A stretch of DNA of 64,000 nucleotides from Pseudonocardia broussonetiae (GTDB lineage Bacteria > Actinomycetota > Actinomycetes > Mycobacteriales > Pseudonocardiaceae), in assembly GCF_013155125.1 (NCBI RefSeq), contig NZ_CP053564.1, forward strand, positions 4,285,501 through 4,349,500, written 5' to 3'. The notes beneath the pieces were generated by a model that did not search any database, was not told the DNA's origin, and saw nothing but the letters and a program-made list of their open reading frames with translations. Within the stretch, counting starts at the first letter, position 1. Each line of letters begins with the position of its first letter. This document shows positions 49,923-64,000 of the stretch, piece by piece. The translations under genes were made by a program, and so were the position numbers.

Positions 49923-50870
49923 ATGAGCATCGCGTCCCCGGAGTCCCGCGTCCCGCTGCGCTACGACAACCGGATCACCCTCCAGAAGCTGGAGGTCCTG
50001 TGCTCGGTGGTGGAGCTCGGCGGGGTCTCGCGCGCCGCGGAGCACCTCTGGGTCGCGCAGTCGGTGGTGTCGGGGCACCTGCGGTCGCTGCAGGAGCGGC
50101 TCGGGGTCCGCATGCTCTACCGCGACGGCCAGAAGATGAAGCTGACGCCGGCCGGCGAGCAGGTGTACCGGTGGGCGTGCACGACCCTCGCCGAGACCCG
50201 CGAGCTCATGCGGCACCTCGACGAGCTGAACACCGTCGAGAACGAGCGGATCCTGCTGGCGACGAGCCAGACCGTCGGCAGCTACCTCCTCCCGCCGGTG
50301 CTCGCCGAGTTCGGCCGGGAGCGGCCGGGGGCGGTCATCTCCATGAACGTCTCCGAGCCCGAGGCGGCCTTCGACGCGGTCGCCTCCGGCGAGTGCGACC
50401 TGGGCATCGTCATCGCGGGCACCGAGTACGACCACCCGCACGTGCGGTCCACGGAGATCGGCCGCGAGGAGATCACCCTCGTCGCCGGCACCGACAGCCT
50501 GCCGGGGATCGACGGGCTGGCGCTGGCCGACCTGCGCTCGATCCCCGTCGTCGCCCCGGCGGCCGGGGCACGGGCGCGCGACGCCATCGACCGCTACCTC
50601 GTGGAGCTCGGTGCCGCACCGCAGAACGTGACGATGGAGCTGGGGCACCCGGAGGCGATGAAGCGCGTCATCCGCCGCGGCGCGGCCGCGTGCCTGCTGT
50701 TCCGCGCCTGCGTCCAGGACGAGCTGGCCGACGGGAGCCTGCGCGAGATCCCGATCCTGGACGCCGACCTGACGCTGCCCGTGCTCAGCATCGTGCGCGC
50801 CGACCGGCAGCTGTCGGCCCGGTCCACGCAGCTCGTCGAGCGCACCCGGGTGTACCTGGCGGCGCGGTGA
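49923..50870 (+). CDS. LysR family regulator
   Basis: A 315-residue LysR protein from ATG 49923. The HTH is RITLQKLEVLCSVVELGGVS, RAAEHLWVAQSVVSGHLRSL; effector domain from about 100 (ILLATSQTVGSYLLPPVLAE, GECDLGIVIAGTEYDH). A longer start at 49887 (12 more residues) has a site TTGAGGA but lies inside the operator palindrome. The stop overlaps the MarR start (GTGA). Probable target: the CocE-type hydrolase/molybdenum hydroxylase block downstream on the other strand, or the upstream MHS pair. Confidence 0.92.
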   Translation: MSIASPESRVPLRYDNRITLQKLEVLCSVVELGGVSRAAEHLWVAQSVVSGHLRSLQERLGVRMLYRDGQKMKLTPAGEQVYRWACTTLAETRELMRHLDELNTVENERILLATSQTVGSYLLPPVLAEFGRERPGAVISMNVSEPEAAFDAVASGECDLGIVIAGTEYDHPHVRSTEIGREEITLVAGTDSLPGIDGLALADLRSIPVVAPAAGARARDAIDRYLVELGAAPQNVTMELGHPEAMKRVIRRGAAACLLFRACVQDELADGSLREIPILDADLTLPVLSIVRADRQLSARSTQLVERTRVYLAAR

Positions 50871-53092: not shown

Positions 53093-55381
53093 TCAGAGCA
53101 GCGCGTCGAGGGTGATCGGCAGGTCGCGCACGCGCCGTCCGGTCGCGTCGTGCACCGCGTTGGCGATCGCGGCGGCGACGCCCGTGATGCCGATCTCGCC
53201 GACGCCGCGGGCGCCGACGGGAGCCCGCGGGTCGGGGACGTCGGTCCACAGGACGTCGATCTCGGGCACGTCGGCGTGCACCGGGACGTGGTAGTCGGTG
53301 AGGTTGGCGTTCACGATGCGGCCGGTCCGCCCGTCGACGACGGTCCGCTCCATCAGCGCCAGCCCGATGCCCATGACGATGCCGCCGCGGAGCTGGCTCG
53401 CGGCGGTGACAGGGTTGATGATCCGCCCGCAGTCGTAGGACCCGACGACCCGGTCGACCCGGGTCTCCCCGGTGACGGAGCTGACCCTGACCTGGCAGAA
53501 CACCGCGCCGAAGGAGTGCATGGACCAGGCCTGCAGCTCGTCGCGGTCGGCCGCGTCGGCCACCGCGGTGACCTCGTGGCGGCCCGCGCGGCGCAGGATC
53601 TGCGCGTAGCCCTCCCACCGGTCCCGGTCGGCGAGCGCGCCCAGGCCGGCGTCCACCGAGCCGACCTCGTCGACGGTCAGGCCCGCCAGCGGCGTTCCGG
53701 GCGGCACCAGTGCCAGCAGCTCCGCGACGAGCGCGCGGTGCGCGGCGATCACCGCCGCCGCGACGCCGACCGTCTGGGCGGAGGCGCCCGCCTGGAACGC
53801 GCCGGGCAGCGTCGAGTCGCCGTACTCGACGGTGACCCGCTCCACCGGGAGGCCCAGGCGCTCGGCGGTGACGACCGCCTGGGCCGTCGTCGTGCCCATC
53901 CCCATGTCGTTCGCGGCCACGGCGACCGTCGCGCGCCCGTCCGCGGTGAGCGTGAGGCGCGCGGCGCCACCGGGGAAGCGCTGGTGGGGGTAGGTCGCGG
54001 CGGCGCACCCGGTGCCGATCCACCACTCGCCGTCGCGCCTGCTGCGGGGCGCCGCCGGGCGCGTCCAGCCGAAGCGCTTCGCGCCCGCGCGCCACGCCTG
54101 CGCCAGGTGGCGCGCCGAGAACGGCGCGCCCGACGCGGGATCGGAGTCCGGTTCGTTGCGCAGGCGCAGCTCCACCGGGTCCACGTCGAGCTGCTCGGCG
54201 AGCTCGTCGACCGCCGACTCCAGCGCGAACGTGCCGACCGCCTCGCCGGGGGCGCGCATGAACGAGTTCGCGATCATGTCGACGTCGACGACGTGCTGGT
54301 CGGTCCGCAGCGCCCCGGTCGCGTACATGTGGCGCGCGGGGAAGGTGAACGGCTCGACGACGTGGTTCCAGGGCGTGATCGACGAGGTGCCGGTGTGGAT
54401 CAGCGCGATGAAGCGGCCGTCCTCGTCGGCGCCGATCGCGACGCGCTGCTCGGTGTTCGTCCGCCCGCCGACGACGCGGTAGACGTCCGCGCGGGAGAGC
54501 GCCAGGCGCACGGGCCGCCCGGCCAGCCTCGCCGCCGCGGCCGCCAGCACGTGGTGCGACCACACCGTCTTGCCGCCGAAGCCGCCGCCCACGTGCGGTG
54601 ACGTCACGTGGACCCGGTGCTCGGCGACGCCGAGCGCGTGCGCGATCGTCCACGCGTGACCGGCGACGGACTGGCTGGCGTCGTGGACGACGAGGTCGTC
54701 GCCGACCCAGCCCACGGTCACCGCGTGCGGCTCGATCGCGTTGTGGTTGTGGCCCGGGGTCCGGTAGACGTGGTCGACCGCGTGCTGTGCGGCGGCCAGC
54801 GCGGCCTCCGCGTCACCGACGGCCACCTCGACCGGCTGGAAGAACAGGTGGTCGGGCCGGCGCGGGTCGGCGGCCGCCCCGGCGGAGGTGCGCGGCGCCG
54901 AGGCCGCGTACTCGACCTCGACGAGCGACGCCGCGTGGTCGGCCTGTTCGCGGGTGTCTGCCAGCACGAGCGCGACCGGCTCGCCGTTCCAGTGGATGCT
55001 GTCGTCCTGCATCACCGGCAGGTCCGTGCCGCCGAACGCCCGCGGAGCGGTGAAGATCGGCCGGAGCGGCCGCATGCGGGGCGCGGTGCGGTGGGTCATC
55101 ACGAGCCGGACGCCGGGCGCGGCCTCGGCCGCCGACGTGTCCAGCCGTGTGATGCGGCCGCTCGCGATCGTGCTGCAGCGCAGGGCCCCGTGGAGCATGC
55201 CCTCCAGCACGTGCTCGGCGGCGTAGCGCGCCTCGCCGCGCACCTTCGCCGGGCCGTCCAGGCGCGGTAGGGGAGTGCCGACGAGCCCGTGCTCGACCTC
55301 CAGCACCGGATCGGTCCCGGTGCGCGGTGTCCAGCCGTCGGGCACGACGGCGACGGGGCGCCGGCCCGGTGCGCCGGTCAC
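53093..55381 (-). CDS. Molybdenum hydroxylase large subunit (xanthine dehydrogenase family)
   Basis: A 762-residue molybdopterin-binding subunit. Features: [20 protein letters not shown] start, [54 protein letters not shown], and the catalytic Glu in [20 protein letters not shown]. It hydroxylates N-heterocycles or oxidises aldehydes with water as the oxygen source. GTG 55381 overlaps the FAD-subunit stop. The CODH-type active-site Cys loop is absent, so it is not a CO dehydrogenase. No Moco-sulfuration chaperone gene is in the operon. Confidence 0.92.
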
Positions 55382-56364
55382 GCCGGGCCTCCGGTGAGCT
55401 GCTCCAGCACGGCGACGATGGTGCGGCGGGCGAGCTCCACCTTGAACGCGTTCCCCGCGAGCGGGCGGGCATCGGCGAGCTCGGCGTCCGCCGCGGCGCG
55501 GAAGGCGGCGGTGGTCGCCGGCCCGCCCGCCAGCACGGCCTCGGCGCGCGCGGCCCGCCACGGCTTCGGCGCGACCCCGCCGAGCGCGAGCCGGGCCCCG
55601 ACGACCGTCCCGCCGTCGAGCTCGATCGCGGCGGCCACCGAGACCAGCGCGAACGCGAAGCCGGCGCGGTCGCGCACCTTGCGGTAGGTCGACCGCACGG
55701 CGCTCCCGCCGGGCGGCAGCTCCACCGCGGTGACGAGCTCGCCGGGCTCGAGCACGGTCTCGACGTCGGGCCGGTCCCCGGGCAGCCGGTGGAGGTCGGC
55801 CAGGGGGACGCGGCGCTCCCCGGCCGCGCCGGTCACGTGCACGACGGCGTCCAGCGCGACCAGCGCGACCGCCATGTCCGACGGGTGGGTGGCCGCGCAG
55901 CTCGGGGACGCGCCGAGGATCGCGAGGTCGCGGGTGTGGCCGCCGATCGCGGCGCAGCCCTGCCCCGGCGACCGCCTGTTGCAGGGCGAGCCGTCGGGGT
56001 CGGAGAAGTAGGGGCAGCGGGTGCGCTGCAGCAGGTTGCCGCCCACGGTCGCCATGTTGCGGACCTGTCCCGACGCGCCCGCGACGATCGCGCGGGTGAG
56101 CACGGGGTAGCGCTGCCGCACCGTGCGGTGGGTGGCCAGGGCGGTGTTCCGGACCGCCGCGCCGATCAGCAGCCGGCCGTCGGGTGCCTCGTCGATGCCG
56201 CCGGGGAGCCCGCTCACGTCGACCAGCCGCGTCGGCGCCTCCACGCCCTGGCGCATCAGGTCGACGAGGTTCGTCCCGCCGCCCAGGTAGCGCGCCCGCC
56301 CGCCGCGGGCGAGCCGGACCGCGTCGGCGACGTCGGTGGCGCGGGCGTACTCGAACTCGATCAC
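55378..56364 (-). CDS. Molybdenum hydroxylase FAD subunit (CoxM/YagS type)
   Basis: A 328-residue FAD-binding subunit: [16 protein letters not shown] and [16 protein letters not shown], followed by [15 protein letters not shown]. The Cys-rich insertion (four Cys within about 25 residues) is characteristic of the YagS-type subunit that carries an additional 4Fe-4S cluster. GTG 56364 overlaps the stop of the iron-sulfur subunit and its own stop overlaps the large-subunit start, giving a strict S-M-L operon. Confidence 0.92.
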
Positions 56365-56915
56365 GCGTCCGCGCTCCCGTGCACCTCGGCGATCGCCGCC
56401 ACGATCCCGTTGTGGGCGCCGCAGCGGCAGAGGTTCCCGCTCATCCGCTCCCGCAGCTCGGCCGGGGTGAGCGCGATGCCGTCGGCCGTCAGGTCCGCCG
56501 TGACGTGGCTGGGGACGCCGCGCGCCACCTCCTCCGCCATCCCGATGGCCGAGCAGATCTGCCCGGGGGTGCAGTAGCCGCACTGCAGCCCGTCGTGGCG
56601 CACGAACGCCTCCTGCAGCGGGTGCCTGCCGCCGAGCCCCTCGACGGTGGTCACCTCGCGGCCGGCGCACTGGACCGCCAGCGCCAGGCAGGACACGATC
56701 CGCTCGCCGTCGACGAGCACGGTGCACGCTCCGCACGCGCCCTGGTCGCACCCCTTCTTGGTGCCGTGGAGCCCGAGGTGCTCGCGGAGGAAGTCGAGCA
56801 GGGAGACGCGGGGATCGGCGGGCGGCGGTGCGGGCACGCCGTTGACGACGAGGTCCGGGCCGGAGGTGCCTGTGCACGACCGGTGACCGGCCGGGGACGC
56901 GGGTTCGACCTTCAC
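56361..56915 (-). CDS. Molybdenum hydroxylase 2Fe-2S subunit
   Basis: A 184-residue iron-sulfur subunit. First cluster cysteines 56, 61, 64 and 76 ([20 protein letters not shown]); second cluster 112, 115, 163 and 165 ([21 protein letters not shown]). It relays electrons from the molybdenum site to FAD. GTG 56915 is the chosen start; the first 20 residues are non-conserved. It is the first gene of the operon and is 79 bp downstream of the TetR gene stop, same strand. Confidence 0.93.
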
Positions 56916-59464: not shown

Positions 59465-59875
59465 ATGACGGTCTCACCGGAATCCGGTGCGGAAACCTGG
59501 ATCAGGCGCTACTACCAGCTCTGCGGGGCGAAGGACATCGCCGGCGCCATGGAGTTCTGGGCGCCCGACGGAAAGCTCACCTTCGCCAATTTCGACACCG
59601 TGATCGGGCGCGACGCGATTCACGAGGCGCTGGCCCAGATCGTCCACAGCTGGATCAAGGAGACGCACACCCTGCACCACCTGTGGGTCCTCCCCGGTGA
59701 TCTCGTCGTCTTCGAGATGGACGTGGCGTTCGACCGCCACGACGGCCGGCACGTGGTCGTACCGGGTGCCGCGGTCTGCCGGGTCGGCGACCGGTGCTTC
59801 CTCGAGCAGCGCATCTACGTCGACATGGCACCGGTGTTCGCGCCGTCCGAGGCCGCGACGAGCGCCACCGCCTGA
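59465..59875 (+). CDS. SnoaL-like/NTF2-fold protein, first gene of P450 operon
   Basis: A 136-residue NTF2-superfamily protein: helical WIRRYYQLCGAKDIAGAMEF, WAPDGKLTFANFDTVIGRDA, and sheet LVVFEMDVAFDRHDG, VVVPGAAVCRVGDRCF. It resembles SnoaL-like polyketide cyclases/isomerases and limonene-epoxide-hydrolase-like folds. ATG 59465 has GGAG upstream. The gene is 52 bp before the P450. A second protein of the same fold sits near the operon end. Confidence 0.82.
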   Translation: MTVSPESGAETWIRRYYQLCGAKDIAGAMEFWAPDGKLTFANFDTVIGRDAIHEALAQIVHSWIKETHTLHHLWVLPGDLVVFEMDVAFDRHDGRHVVVPGAAVCRVGDRCFLEQRIYVDMAPVFAPSEAATSATA

Positions 59876-59927
59876 CCCGCCGGCCCGGCGCTGGCACACC
59901 GCGGTTCGCATCCTGCAGAGGAGCACC

Positions 59928-61316
59928 ATGTCCGACCCCCTTTTCGACCCCTTCAGTCCGGCCGATCAGCTGAATGCCGAGGAAGTGCTGGCGAAGGCCC
60001 GCGCGGGCGGCGGTGTGACGTGTCCGTACCCGGGCGTGGCGGTCGTGGCCGGGAATGCCGGCGTCCGTGCCGTGCTGACCGATCCCGAGACGTTCTCCAA
60101 CGCCTTCAACTTCGATCTCGAACGCGGACCGGCGCCCGATCTGCACGACCCGATGAACACGATCATCGCGCGGTCGGATCCGCCGTACCACAGCGCGATC
60201 AGGAGGTTCCTGCGCCGCTGGTTCGAGCCGGCGCGGCTGCGCAGGTTCGAACCGCACGTCCGCGAGATCGTCGAGGCGGTGGTCGCGGAGCTCCCGACGA
60301 GCGGCCGGGTCGACCTGATCGGCCACCTGGGCAGGGTGATCCCCGCCCGCACCGTCTACGCGATCATCGGGATCCCGACCTCCGACCGGGACCGACTGCA
60401 GGCGTCCTCAGACGAGCTGAACGCGAACCTGCCCGCGCCGAGCCCCGACCTGATCGCCCGGATCCGGCAAGTCTTCGTCGAGGTGATCCAGGACCGTCGC
60501 GCGTCGGGGGAGCGCCGTGACGACGTCATCGACGGGCTCGTCCACCCGGACGGGGACCTCGTGTTCGACGACGAGGTCGCCGCCGGACACCTCCTGCAGC
60601 TGCTCGTCGCCGGCGCGGACACCACCACGAGCCTCATCGGCAACCTGCTGCTGCGCCTGCTGCAGGAGCCGAGCCGGTGGGACCGCGTCGTGGCCGACCC
60701 GGGGCGGGCGGCCGCGGCGGTCGAGGAGTCGCTCCGGCGGGACTCGCCCCTGCCGTTCACCCTGCGCACCGCGGTCGCCGGGACCGAGCTCGGCGGCTGC
60801 CCGGTGGAGCCCAAGGACCGGATCGTGCTGAGCCTGCAGTCGGCGAACTGGGACGAGCAGGTCTGGGGCGACTCCGCGCTCGAGTTCGACCTCGACCGCC
60901 CGCGGGCGGCTGCGCACCTCTCGTTCGGTTCCGGGATCCACACCTGCCTCGGCGCCCCGATCGCCCGCATCGAGGCCCGCGTGACGATCGAGGTGCTCAC
61001 CGAGCGCTTCCCCCGGCTGCGCCTGGCGCCCGACCACGCGCCCGACTACCTGCCCGTCGCGCAGATGCGCCTGCTCCGCAGCCTGGTCGTCGACCTCGAC
61101 CCGCCCGCGGCCACGGAGTCCCGACCGGTGCTGCTCGAGGTCGACCCGGACCGCTGCGAGGGCCACGGGCTGTGCGAGAGCGAGGCCTCGGAGCTCGTGC
61201 ACCTCGACGACGACGGCGTGCTCGTGATCGACCGGGTCGACGTGCCGGCGCACCTCGTGGGCGCGGCCACCCGGGCCGTGCAGGTGTGCCCGGTCGCGGC
61301 ACTGCGGCTGCGCTGA
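59928..61316 (+). CDS. Cytochrome P450 with C-terminal fused ferredoxin
   Basis: A 462-residue fusion. Residues 1-390 are a bacterial P450: oxygen-activation I helix AGADTTT (228-234), ExxR (Glu267-Arg270), heme loop FGSGIHTCLG with Cys340. After a short linker (about 391-399) comes a ferredoxin, 400-462, VLLEVDPDRCEGHGLCESEA with Cys410, His413, Cys416, and Cys454 in VQVCPVAAL: the CxxHxxC...CP pattern of 3Fe-4S/4Fe-4S ferredoxins that usually are separate genes beside actinobacterial P450s. The fusion should speed electron delivery; no reductase gene is visible. ATG 59928 follows AGAGGAG. The in-frame longer ORF is rejected. Confidence 0.93.
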   Translation: MSDPLFDPFSPADQLNAEEVLAKARAGGGVTCPYPGVAVVAGNAGVRAVLTDPETFSNAFNFDLERGPAPDLHDPMNTIIARSDPPYHSAIRRFLRRWFEPARLRRFEPHVREIVEAVVAELPTSGRVDLIGHLGRVIPARTVYAIIGIPTSDRDRLQASSDELNANLPAPSPDLIARIRQVFVEVIQDRRASGERRDDVIDGLVHPDGDLVFDDEVAAGHLLQLLVAGADTTTSLIGNLLLRLLQEPSRWDRVVADPGRAAAAVEESLRRDSPLPFTLRTAVAGTELGGCPVEPKDRIVLSLQSANWDEQVWGDSALEFDLDRPRAAAHLSFGSGIHTCLGAPIARIEARVTIEVLTERFPRLRLAPDHAPDYLPVAQMRLLRSLVVDLDPPAATESRPVLLEVDPDRCEGHGLCESEASELVHLDDDGVLVIDRVDVPAHLVGAATRAVQVCPVAALRLR

Positions 61317-61351: not shown

Positions 61352-62386
61352 ATGAACGAGAACGTCTACCCGCACAACTGGAGCCGGGAGGGCTTCCTCG
61401 GCGACTTCGTCGTGGCGCTGCGGCCGCATCCCATCAACGAGTACACCGAGGTGGCCGGCCCGCACGCACCGCACCGCATCGACCTGACCGCCGTCAAGGC
61501 GGTCGACGCGACGGACCCCGCCGAGCTGCCCACCGCGTTCGCCCGCTCCCGCAACGACCTGGTGCTCTCGGTGTCGGCCCGGTCCGAGCCGACCCCGTTC
61601 GTCTGGCGCAACGCCGAGTACGACGAGGTGCACCTCGTCCAGGAGGGCGAGCTGGAGTACGTGACCGACTGGGGCACGCTCGCGGTGCGGCCCGGTGACT
61701 TCGTGTTCCTGCCGCGCGCGGTGTCCTACCGGGTGGTGCCGACGACCCCGACCACGCTCCGGGTGATCATCGAGACCCCCGAGGCGGTCGCGATGAACCC
61801 GCAGGCGCAGCCGGGGATGATCAACGCGGCGCGCGCGGTCCGCCGTCCGGACCCGGCGCGGGTCTCGCAGGAGAGCGGTCCGACGACGCTGCTCATCCGG
61901 ACCACCGACGGCATCACGCGGTTCACGATGACGAACGACCCGCTGGCGATGACGGAGATCGTCTACGGCCGGGCACCGGTGTGGACGGTCAACCTGGCCG
62001 ACATCCAGCCGGTGGCCTACCTCCCGGCCGGCGGCCCGCCGTCGCACTTCGCGGAGACGCCGACCAAGGACCTCCTGCTCTACACGCTGAGCTCCCGGCC
62101 GGGCGGGCGCCCGCCCCAGCACCACAACGCCGACTACGACGAGCTGGTCTTCTACTTCCGCGGGCCCGCTCCCTACGGCGGGCTCGACGCACCCGGCACC
62201 GGGATCTGGATCCCGAAGGCCGTCGCCCACTGGGGCCCGAGGGAGGACCCCGAGGGCGGGTACCTGGCCTGGCTCCTCGAGAGCGGCGGCACGATCCGGC
62301 TGACCGCAGAAGGGCTCGCCGCCGCCGAGCTGATGGAGACGAGCCTGTTCCACCCGCTGGTGCCCGCCCCCGGCGGCGTCGCGTGA
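61352..62386 (+). CDS. Homogentisate 1,2-dioxygenase-like bicupin
   Basis: A 344-residue cupin oxygenase. The C-terminal cupin has the homogentisate dioxygenase iron triad with matching spacing: His258 in QHHNADYDELVFYF, Glu264, and His293 in IPKAVAHWGP. The N-terminal half has the second barrel (YDEVHLVQEGELEYVTDWGT, VRPGDFVFLPRAVSYRV). It is about 100 residues shorter than true HGD (about 440), so it is a compact relative that may act on a different hydroquinone or catechol. ATG 61352 follows GGAAGGAG. The stop overlaps the BKACE start (GTGA). Confidence 0.88.
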   Translation: MNENVYPHNWSREGFLGDFVVALRPHPINEYTEVAGPHAPHRIDLTAVKAVDATDPAELPTAFARSRNDLVLSVSARSEPTPFVWRNAEYDEVHLVQEGELEYVTDWGTLAVRPGDFVFLPRAVSYRVVPTTPTTLRVIIETPEAVAMNPQAQPGMINAARAVRRPDPARVSQESGPTTLLIRTTDGITRFTMTNDPLAMTEIVYGRAPVWTVNLADIQPVAYLPAGGPPSHFAETPTKDLLLYTLSSRPGGRPPQHHNADYDELVFYFRGPAPYGGLDAPGTGIWIPKAVAHWGPREDPEGGYLAWLLESGGTIRLTAEGLAAAELMETSLFHPLVPAPGGVA

Positions 62387-63213
62387 GCGCCGTCGTCACG
62401 GTCGCGCCGACCGGACCGCTCGCGACGAAGGCCGACAACCCGGACCTGCCGACCCAGCCGCACGAGATCGCCGACGCGGTGGCCGAGGCGTACCGGGCCG
62501 GGGCCGCGGTCGCGCACCTGCACCTGCGCGACGAGCACGACCGCCCGACCGCCGACCCCGACATCGCCCGGCGGACGATCGACCTCATCGCGGAGCGGTG
62601 CCCGATCCTCGTGCAGCTGTCCACCGGGGTGGGCCTCGACGTGCCGTTCGAGGAGCGGGAACGGCTCGTCGAGCTGCGGCCGCGCATGGCGACGCTCAAC
62701 CCGTGCAGCATGAGCTTCGGGGAGGGGGAGTTCCGCAACCCTCCCCGGGACGTGCGCCGCCTCGCCGCCCGCATGCGCGAGCTCGGCGTCCGGCCCGAGC
62801 TGGAGATCTACGACACCGGGCACCTCGACGCCTGCCTGCGGCTGCGCGACGACGGGCTGCTCGAGGAGCCGCTGCAGTTCAGCATCGTGCTGGGCGTGCG
62901 CGGCGGCATGGCGGCCACCCCCGACAACCTGCTCGCCACGGTGCGCAGGCTCCCGGCCGGCAGCGTGTGGCAGGTCATCGCGATCGGCCGCGCGAACCTC
63001 CAGCTCACCGCCATCGGGCTGGCGCTGGGCGGCAACGCCCGTGCCGGTCTCGAGGACACCCTCCACATCGCCCGGGGCGAGCTCGCCGCGGGCAACCTCC
63101 CGCTCGTGGAGCGCGCGATCGCCCTGGTGGGCGCCGTGGGCCGGACGGTGGCCGACGTGGCGCAGGCGGAACACGACCTGCAGCTGACCCGACCGGCGCT
63201 GAGCCGGACATGA
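62383..63213 (+). CDS. Beta-keto acid cleavage enzyme (BKACE, DUF849)
   Basis: A 276-residue BKACE: VVTVAPTGPLATKADNPDLP, zinc ligands HLH (His45, His47 in VAHLHLRDEHDRP), PEILVQLSTGVG-like CPILVQLSTGVG, and the C-terminal ALGGNARAGLEDTLHIARGE. It uses acetyl-CoA to cleave a beta-keto acid, giving acetoacetate plus an acyl-CoA; family founder is 3-keto-5-aminohexanoate cleavage enzyme. GTG 62383 overlaps the dioxygenase stop, implying that the ring-cleavage product yields a beta-keto acid. Confidence 0.92.
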   Translation: MSAVVTVAPTGPLATKADNPDLPTQPHEIADAVAEAYRAGAAVAHLHLRDEHDRPTADPDIARRTIDLIAERCPILVQLSTGVGLDVPFEERERLVELRPRMATLNPCSMSFGEGEFRNPPRDVRRLAARMRELGVRPELEIYDTGHLDACLRLRDDGLLEEPLQFSIVLGVRGGMAATPDNLLATVRRLPAGSVWQVIAIGRANLQLTAIGLALGGNARAGLEDTLHIARGELAAGNLPLVERAIALVGAVGRTVADVAQAEHDLQLTRPALSRT

Positions 63214-63224
63214 CAAGAGGAGCG

Positions 63225-63719
63225 ATGACCGTGCTCGGTGACCTGTCGGACCCGGAGGCGGCCCTCCGCACGCTGGCGGCCGAACGCGCTTGCTGGGACA
63301 CCTACCTCGCCTACTTCGAGGTCCTGGACGAGAAGCGACCCGTCCTCGAGGCGTGCGCGTGCTTCACCGAGGACGCCACGATCACGTACGGCATGAAGGG
63401 CGGCGCCCTGGAGTTCACCGGTCGCGCCGAGTACGCGGACTTCCTCGCGGGCGCGACGGCGGCGCAGGAGATGGTCGCGCACGTGGTCGGGCAGCACCGC
63501 TTCGTCTGGGACGGCGGGACCCCGCGCCTCATCACCTACGTCACGGTGTGGCAGTGGTTCGTGGCCGACGCGCACCGCGGTGACCTCCGGCCCGCCGACT
63601 ACGTCGCGGTCGGCCACTCCGTGGACGAGTTCCGGGACGTCGGCGACGCGTGGCTGATCGCCCGGCGCACCGTGCGCCCCGCGGCCGGCATCACGGCCAT
63701 CGGCAGCAGGCCCGCCTGA
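63225..63719 (+). CDS. SnoaL-like/NTF2-fold protein (second copy)
   Basis: A 164-residue protein from ATG 63225 (an ATG at 63210 overlapping the BKACE stop is an alternative). NTF2-like fold with LRTLAAERACWDTYLAYFEV, CFTEDATITYGMKGGALEFT, ITYVTVWQWFVADAHRG, and GHSVDEFRDVGDAWLIARRT. The pattern matches SnoaL-like domain proteins that accompany ring-hydroxylating or ring-cleavage steps. GAGGAG lies close before ATG 63225. It could be an isomerase or dehydratase for an intermediate. Confidence 0.8.
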   Translation: MTVLGDLSDPEAALRTLAAERACWDTYLAYFEVLDEKRPVLEACACFTEDATITYGMKGGALEFTGRAEYADFLAGATAAQEMVAHVVGQHRFVWDGGTPRLITYVTVWQWFVADAHRGDLRPADYVAVGHSVDEFRDVGDAWLIARRTVRPAAGITAIGSRPA

Positions 63720-63801: not shown

Positions 63802-64000
63802 ATGACCGCGACGGGCACGACCCCGCCACCGCCCACGGGCCCCGACGACCGCCTGCGGATCGTCTGCCTCGAGGAGCACGTGTCCACCCCTGCACTGGTG
63901 GAGGCGTGGACCGCGCACTCCCTGCCGTTCGGCCGCGGGCCGCTGCTCGACCAGCTGGCGGACCTGGGCGAGGGCCGGTTGGCCGCCATGGACGACGCGG
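63802..64000 (+). CDS. Amidohydrolase (ACMSD/aromatic decarboxylase-like), N-terminal part
   Basis: Frame open to the window edge (66 codons). After a Pro/Thr-rich leader it reads RLRIVCLEEHVSTPALVEAW and ends LGEGRLAAMDDA. The EEH with following TP and the late MDDA are typical of amidohydrolase-2 family proteins (aminocarboxymuconate semialdehyde decarboxylase, gamma-resorcylate decarboxylase and related). Family decision is based on the N-terminus only. ATG 63802 has GAGAGGGAACC upstream. It is the sixth gene of the operon. Confidence 0.7.
   Translation, partial: MTATGTTPPPPTGPDDRLRIVCLEEHVSTPALVEAWTAHSLPFGRGPLLDQLADLGEGRLAAMDDA

Follow-up and report, generated by a model that had tools for sequence, protein, structure and literature searches.

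A natural P450-ferredoxin fusion in an aromatic-type catabolic gene cluster of Pseudonocardia broussonetiae

The window analysed here is a stretch of 64,000 nucleotides of the Pseudonocardia broussonetiae genome. Near its end lies a plus-strand gene (59928..61316) that translates into 462 residues with a single stop, at the end of the frame. The ribosome-binding site AGAGGAG (59917..59923, +) stands ahead of an ATG at 59928, a start that agrees with those of seven full-length relatives; a GTG-initiated version of the frame, 539 aa long, was set aside and the ATG preferred. Residues 1-390 (59928..61097) form a P450 domain by Pfam, fold comparison and motifs, and residues 401-462 (61128..61313) form a ferredoxin domain of the Fer4_15 family by Pfam and sequence searches. 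Between the two lies a linker, residues 391-400 (61098..61127), that varies between relatives. An earlier note on this DNA had described the P450 frame as running into the ferredoxin without a stop or linker break; there is indeed one frame of 462 residues with no internal stop, but a short linker is present.

The P450 half belongs to the P450 superfamily (PF00067): it has a Pfam p450 match above the cut-off (E 1.3e-19), the I-helix threonine within AGADTTT (residues 228-234), an ExxR motif (ESLR, 267-270) and the heme-cysteine loop FGSGIHTCLG (333-342), in which the heme ligand Cys340 is encoded at 60945..60947 (+). Fold comparison covered the P450 half (residues 1-398 at most), and the PDB entries listed in it align with the P450 at 21-31% identity; assignment to a named CYP family calls for more than 40% identity to a named member. 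The ferredoxin half matches Fer4_15 above the cut-off at residues 404-460 (E 2.3e-11), while Fer4_13 falls narrowly below its own (22.7 vs 24.5 bits). It carries the cluster motif CEGHGLC (CxxHxxC) at residues 410-416 (61155..61175, +), with Cys410 and Cys416, and the third cluster cysteine with its proline, Cys454-Pro455 (61287..61292, +). The complete CxxHxxC...CP ferredoxin that had been recognised in the P450 frame is therefore there, with Cys410, Cys416, Cys454 and the Fer4_15 match, and by sequence it is of the single-cluster actinobacterial type, as had been claimed. The domain-architecture check proposed at that time, PF00067 followed by a C-terminal ferredoxin, returned p450 and Fer4_15, both above their cut-offs. 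In the predicted structure of the fused protein (pLDDT 94.4, pTM 0.85), the linker at about residues 391-400 is the block of lowest confidence (pLDDT 76, against 96 and 95 in the flanking blocks).

The fused gene is part of a plus-strand run in which neighbouring genes are spaced by -4 to 82 nt. A gene for a SnoaL-like protein (59465..59875, by Pfam and spacing) ends 52 nt before it, and a gene for a bicupin, a distant relative of homogentisate 1,2-dioxygenase, starts 35 nt after it (61352..62386). The latter overlaps by 4 nt a gene for a beta-keto acid cleavage enzyme (BKACE; 62383..63213, by family matches), which is followed by a second SnoaL-like protein (63210..63719; the overlap with BKACE is again 4 nt if the start is at 63210, and the gene caller places it at 63225) and by the start of an amidohydrolase gene (63802..64000). 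Past the end of the window the run continues with an MFS transporter and an NADPH:FMN reductase of flavodoxin-like fold, the third gene past the bicupin-BKACE-SnoaL run. The same cluster includes a three-subunit molybdenum hydroxylase of the xanthine-dehydrogenase type on the minus strand (53093..56915), whose large and FAD subunits were assigned by NCBIfam and whose small subunit was assigned by position and synteny, and a LysR-type regulator of the conserved cluster (49923..50870, +). The description of the operon as catabolic in type holds up by sequence.

The alignment profile of the bicupin has homogentisate 1,2-dioxygenase as its best solved relative, at a weak E of 7.4e-4. The HgmA_N family is found in five of eight bicupin members at E 0.01 or better, the window's bicupin being below the cut-off. 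Its conserved residues H258-x5-E264 and H293 are spaced like the residues that bind iron in homogentisate dioxygenase. The bicupin is 80-93% identical in three other genomes; a structure model predicted from its single sequence had no usable confidence (pLDDT 33.5). Paired with BKACE, the bicupin is a candidate new ring-cleavage dioxygenase.

We searched about 5.8 billion proteins for relatives of the fused protein; 7995 candidates were scored, 184 were reported and the best 120 were listed. Among the matches listed are seven further full-length fusions, 55-76% identical to the query, each a single chain of 462-464 residues with both domains, as well as this genome's own shorter gene call (P0002). 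All three cluster cysteines are retained in 8/8 fused proteins. A search with residues 385-462 against proteins of fusion-like length returned eight: P0002, six members of the fused family and P0122, apparently a frameshift artefact; P0009 was absent from this return. With the threshold set at E 1e-85, three of 390 family genomes had a match, fused in this genome and in a second one (G174) and unfused in a third (G299), which makes the fusion rare (2/390, this genome included). A sample of 394 genomes from the class yielded matches at 1e-80 in this genome and, with the P450 unfused, in G597. No plasmid-borne copy of the fused gene was matched at E 1e-50, and a scan of genome contigs gave no fused relative but 11 loci (ten in Dietzia, one in Parafrankia) matched solely within residues 390-462. 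By these searches the fusion is real but rare. Counted against the pattern is P0010, a fragmentary metagenomic relative (333 aa, 74% identical) that departs from the others within the linker and ends without a ferredoxin; its tail could reflect a split gene, a frameshift or an error in the sequence.

As a control for chance read-through, a query made of the C-terminal half of the P450 plus the ferredoxin was run against 200 genomes of the family, a design that detects same-frame ferredoxins only. Among the matches listed that reached at least query position 205, the window's had no stop and the 16/16 others had one or two. Two listed frames that continue uninterrupted beyond the first cluster cysteine (in G335 and G333) were rejected as fusions of this type: on a reading of their sequence letters, they are 766-residue CYP116-like frames with a P450, a reductase-like and a [2Fe-2S]-like part.

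A tree of 129 ferredoxin sequences places the eight fused domains in one clade (support 100/91, 99% of bootstrap trees), from few columns, with a bootstrap that had not fully settled and with P0122 scored as unfused. Because the ferredoxin halves form one clade, a single fusion is likely. The fused proteins also cluster in the P450 trees, with P0011 (full-length, unfused, 55%) inside or beside them at weak support. With P0010 excluded, the P450 tree is compatible with a single fused clade (p-AU 0.26), and a larger P450 tree requires three label changes with P0010 scored as unfused. Two histories remain for P0011: one fusion followed by a loss in P0011, or P0011 branching first.

Unfused relatives have their ferredoxins encoded separately. 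In G597, a CEGHGLC ferredoxin gene lies about 1.3 kb upstream of the P450, and in G299 a ferredoxin gene lies about 8 kb upstream, adjoining a reductase-like gene. The P. broussonetiae genome itself has a pre-fusion type of arrangement at a second locus (L003, G000:C1:6986501-6987853), where a P450 ends in TAG and, three codons later, a ferredoxin starts in the same frame. The stretch between residue 388 and the first cluster cysteine spans 22 positions in the fusion, against 16 in L003 and 21 in L030, the stop included. At junctions such as these two, the loss of one stop codon would create such a fusion. The fusion probably arose once, through loss of the stop between adjoining P450 and ferredoxin genes. 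PMC9868604 proposes a stop-loss origin for the CYP51-ferredoxin fusion of Methylococcus as well.

The two halves evolve under different constraint. Substitution rates were calculated by NG86 for one genome pair, this genome and G174, at high dS, so that the values are rough and their order is clear. The ferredoxin half is 81.7% identical (dN 0.105, dS 1.098, dN/dS ~0.10), the P450 half 73.1% (dN 0.182, dS 0.782, dN/dS ~0.23) and the linker, taken as residues 389-402, 50% (dN 0.457, dS 1.605). Constraint is stronger on the ferredoxin half than on the P450 half.

Related clusters differ in what they keep of the fused gene. G174 has 12 of the cluster genes, the fused gene and 11 others, at 65-90% identity and in an altered order, with a ferredoxin reductase gene about 2.4 kb from the fused gene. 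The cluster of G276 lacks the MBL-fold gene, and its matched genes encode proteins 81-94% identical to their counterparts here. Its fused copy (L080:14067-14470) has decayed: most of the P450 is gone, and the remaining tail runs in frame into the ferredoxin and then into a frameshift. A third genome, G252 (L082/L083), retains the bicupin, BKACE, the amidohydrolase, the FMN reductase, a CocE-type hydrolase and both regulators; no fused gene was found in the 30 kb read there, nor genome-wide at E 1e-85. Because the gene is mostly lost in G276 and G252 has no copy, the fused P450 step is dispensable there. Within the 30-kb read of G252, the molybdenum hydroxylase appears solely as a fragment of the large subunit, and from this genome the fused gene and the molybdenum hydroxylase may form one accessory module; G276 keeps the molybdenum hydroxylase despite its broken fused gene. 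Beside the cluster, both G276 and G252 have a flavin monooxygenase, a two-cupin protein and a member of the fumarylacetoacetate-hydrolase family, a set that appears gentisate-like, the pathway being named from its genes. The comparison across relatives suggests that the fused P450 adds an accessory step upstream in an aromatic-type pathway.

We put the probability at roughly 0.83 that the gene encodes a genuine two-domain monooxygenase whose tethered cluster feeds its own heme and whose fusion has a single stop-loss origin. On this reading, a soluble bacterial P450 would be joined by a linker of about ten residues to a CxxHxxC...CP single-cluster ferredoxin carrying a [3Fe-4S] cluster. A separately encoded NAD(P)H-dependent ferredoxin reductase would reduce the tethered cluster, which would then dock under the heme loop and pass two single electrons to the heme of the same chain. 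The P450 may oxidise an aromatic compound that enters a ring-cleavage pathway formed with the molybdenum hydroxylase, the homogentisate-dioxygenase-like bicupin and BKACE. Several published observations bear on this scheme: CxxHxxC ferredoxins adjoining P450s were isolated as [3Fe-4S] proteins, and several of these systems were reconstituted in active form (PMC6237146); in an engineered complex of a 3Fe-4S ferredoxin and a P450, the shortest cluster-heme distance is 16.75 A (PMC9868604); and the ferredoxin of the Methylococcus fusion is mobile, the fusion being argued to guarantee electron transfer rather than to speed it (PMC9519919). The tether described here may likewise serve mainly to guarantee the partner.

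The earlier note had proposed that such an oxygenase would need only a reductase. In principle this stands, but no reductase of the Reductase_C family is encoded in the operon of the fused gene in this genome. There are six Reductase_C loci in the genome, five above the cut-off, and the nearest lies about 14.5 kb downstream of the fused gene, close to another P450. A P450 and a ferredoxin reductase lie about 12-16 kb after the fused gene (L022:15262-19187), and this reductase is a possible partner in trans. The one of the six loci closest to the reductase of G174 is 40.5% identical to it.

In an unlikely alternative, the heme of the fusion would draw its electrons mainly from elsewhere: the tethered ferredoxin would serve other P450s or act between chains, and the P450 would rely on another ferredoxin. 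Such an exchange of partners would find candidates among the ten Fer4_15 loci of this genome (the fusion included), and PMC9519919 reports that the ferredoxin of the Methylococcus fusion makes transient contacts and that an E. coli flavodoxin system efficiently reconstitutes both that fusion and its separate P450 domain. The strong constraint on the ferredoxin half speaks against it, as does the loss of cluster cysteines in none of the eight fused proteins.

The gene may also yield two products, a free ferredoxin made from an internal start beside the fusion, which we judge quite unlikely. A GTG (Val401) does lie 9 nt after a GGAG at the junction (codons ACG GAG TCC CGA CCG GTG), but a possible start residue is found at this position in only three of the eight fused proteins (V, V and M, with DNA at hand for two of the eight), and the corresponding codon in G174 is ACG. 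An internal ferredoxin start is thus possible in this gene and is not conserved.

A very improbable route runs from NADPH through an FMN protein and the [3Fe-4S] cluster to the heme, with the NADPH:FMN reductase reducing the tethered ferredoxin directly and no classical ferredoxin reductase involved. In G174 the gene for this enzyme precedes the fused gene by 62 nt on the same strand. Against this route, G276 and G252 retain the gene although neither has a functional fused gene, and a classical reductase is encoded in G174.

Barely credible, finally, is an artefact in which a missing stop or a frameshift error, suspected earlier at about 61115, merges what are two distinct genes in the cell. 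Artefacts of this sort do seem to occur, as in P0122, a P450-ferredoxin chain with an apparently frame-shifted P450 part and a retained Met at the ferredoxin start, and the tail of P0010 is divergent; but the seven other full-length fusions come from several sources, one of them within a second genome, and read through the same place independently, the decayed G276 copy is likewise in frame across the junction, and no Met is conserved there (one of eight fused proteins). The P450-ferredoxin join is genuine.

If the preferred reading of a two-domain monooxygenase fed by its own tethered cluster is true, fusion of a P450 to a 3Fe-4S-type ferredoxin extends beyond CYP51 to a catabolic actinobacterial P450. 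Local supply, coupling and partner choice are possible benefits, and since related P450s and ferredoxins exist unfused and one fused copy is decaying, the benefit is testable on natural pairs. The fixed one-to-one stoichiometry would be useful for biocatalysis because only a reductase must be supplied.

The nearest known architecture is MCCYP51FX of Methylococcus capsulatus (PDB 6mcw/7snm), a bacterial CYP51-Fdx in which a P450 is likewise followed in one chain by a C-terminal CxxHxxC...CP ferredoxin and which likewise needs a separate reductase. The best PDB match of the ferredoxin half is 6mcw (E 6.6e-8). For the whole protein the best is CYP125MRCA at 166 bits; among the best 60 of 555 PDB matches (the 60th at 122 bits), 6mcw is absent despite the shared ferredoxin, and no entry is named CYP51, some entries being without a family name. 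By this ranking, the P450 half does not group with CYP51. The I-helix differs too, with AGADTTT here and a GQHTS-type motif in CYP51, and CYP51-ferredoxin belongs to sterol synthesis whereas the protein described here belongs to a catabolic cluster. The ferredoxin fused to CYP51, whose sequence in 6mcw has CKGHGNC, is treated as [2Fe-2S] in the available part of PMC9519919 and as 3Fe-4S in that of PMC9868604.

CYP116B enzymes (P450 RhF, OhpA) are also natural fusions of a P450 with redox domains, and OhpA produces homogentisate in aromatic catabolism (PMC8449657). Their chain includes a flavin reductase and a [2Fe-2S] domain (PMC9868604), whereas the protein described here lacks a reductase domain, and its single ferredoxin belongs to a different family: it is 462 aa long, and Pfam finds only p450, Fer4_15 and Fer4_13. 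In actinobacterial class I systems with a CxxHxxC ferredoxin (M. marinum; FdxE-CYP143 of M. tuberculosis), the ferredoxin family and the expected electron route are the same, but the ferredoxin is a separate gene; the ferredoxin half is 57-70% identical to stand-alone proteins (best 120 of 420 found). PMC9868604 also describes the crystallised FdxE-CYP143 as an engineered fusion with the ferredoxin N-terminal, and mentions one native P450 fusion with an N-terminal ferredoxin, in a marine bacterium. In the literature retrieved, partly as excerpts, we found no P450 other than CYP51 reported to carry a 3Fe-4S-type ferredoxin at its C-terminus. Since the ferredoxin of the CYP51 fusion is of the same kind, the ferredoxin type is not what sets the fused protein apart; its P450 lineage and its pathway are. 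The architecture is already known from CYP51-ferredoxin fusions, and what is new is its occurrence in an aromatic-type catabolic cluster, with a P450 half that ranks apart from CYP51.
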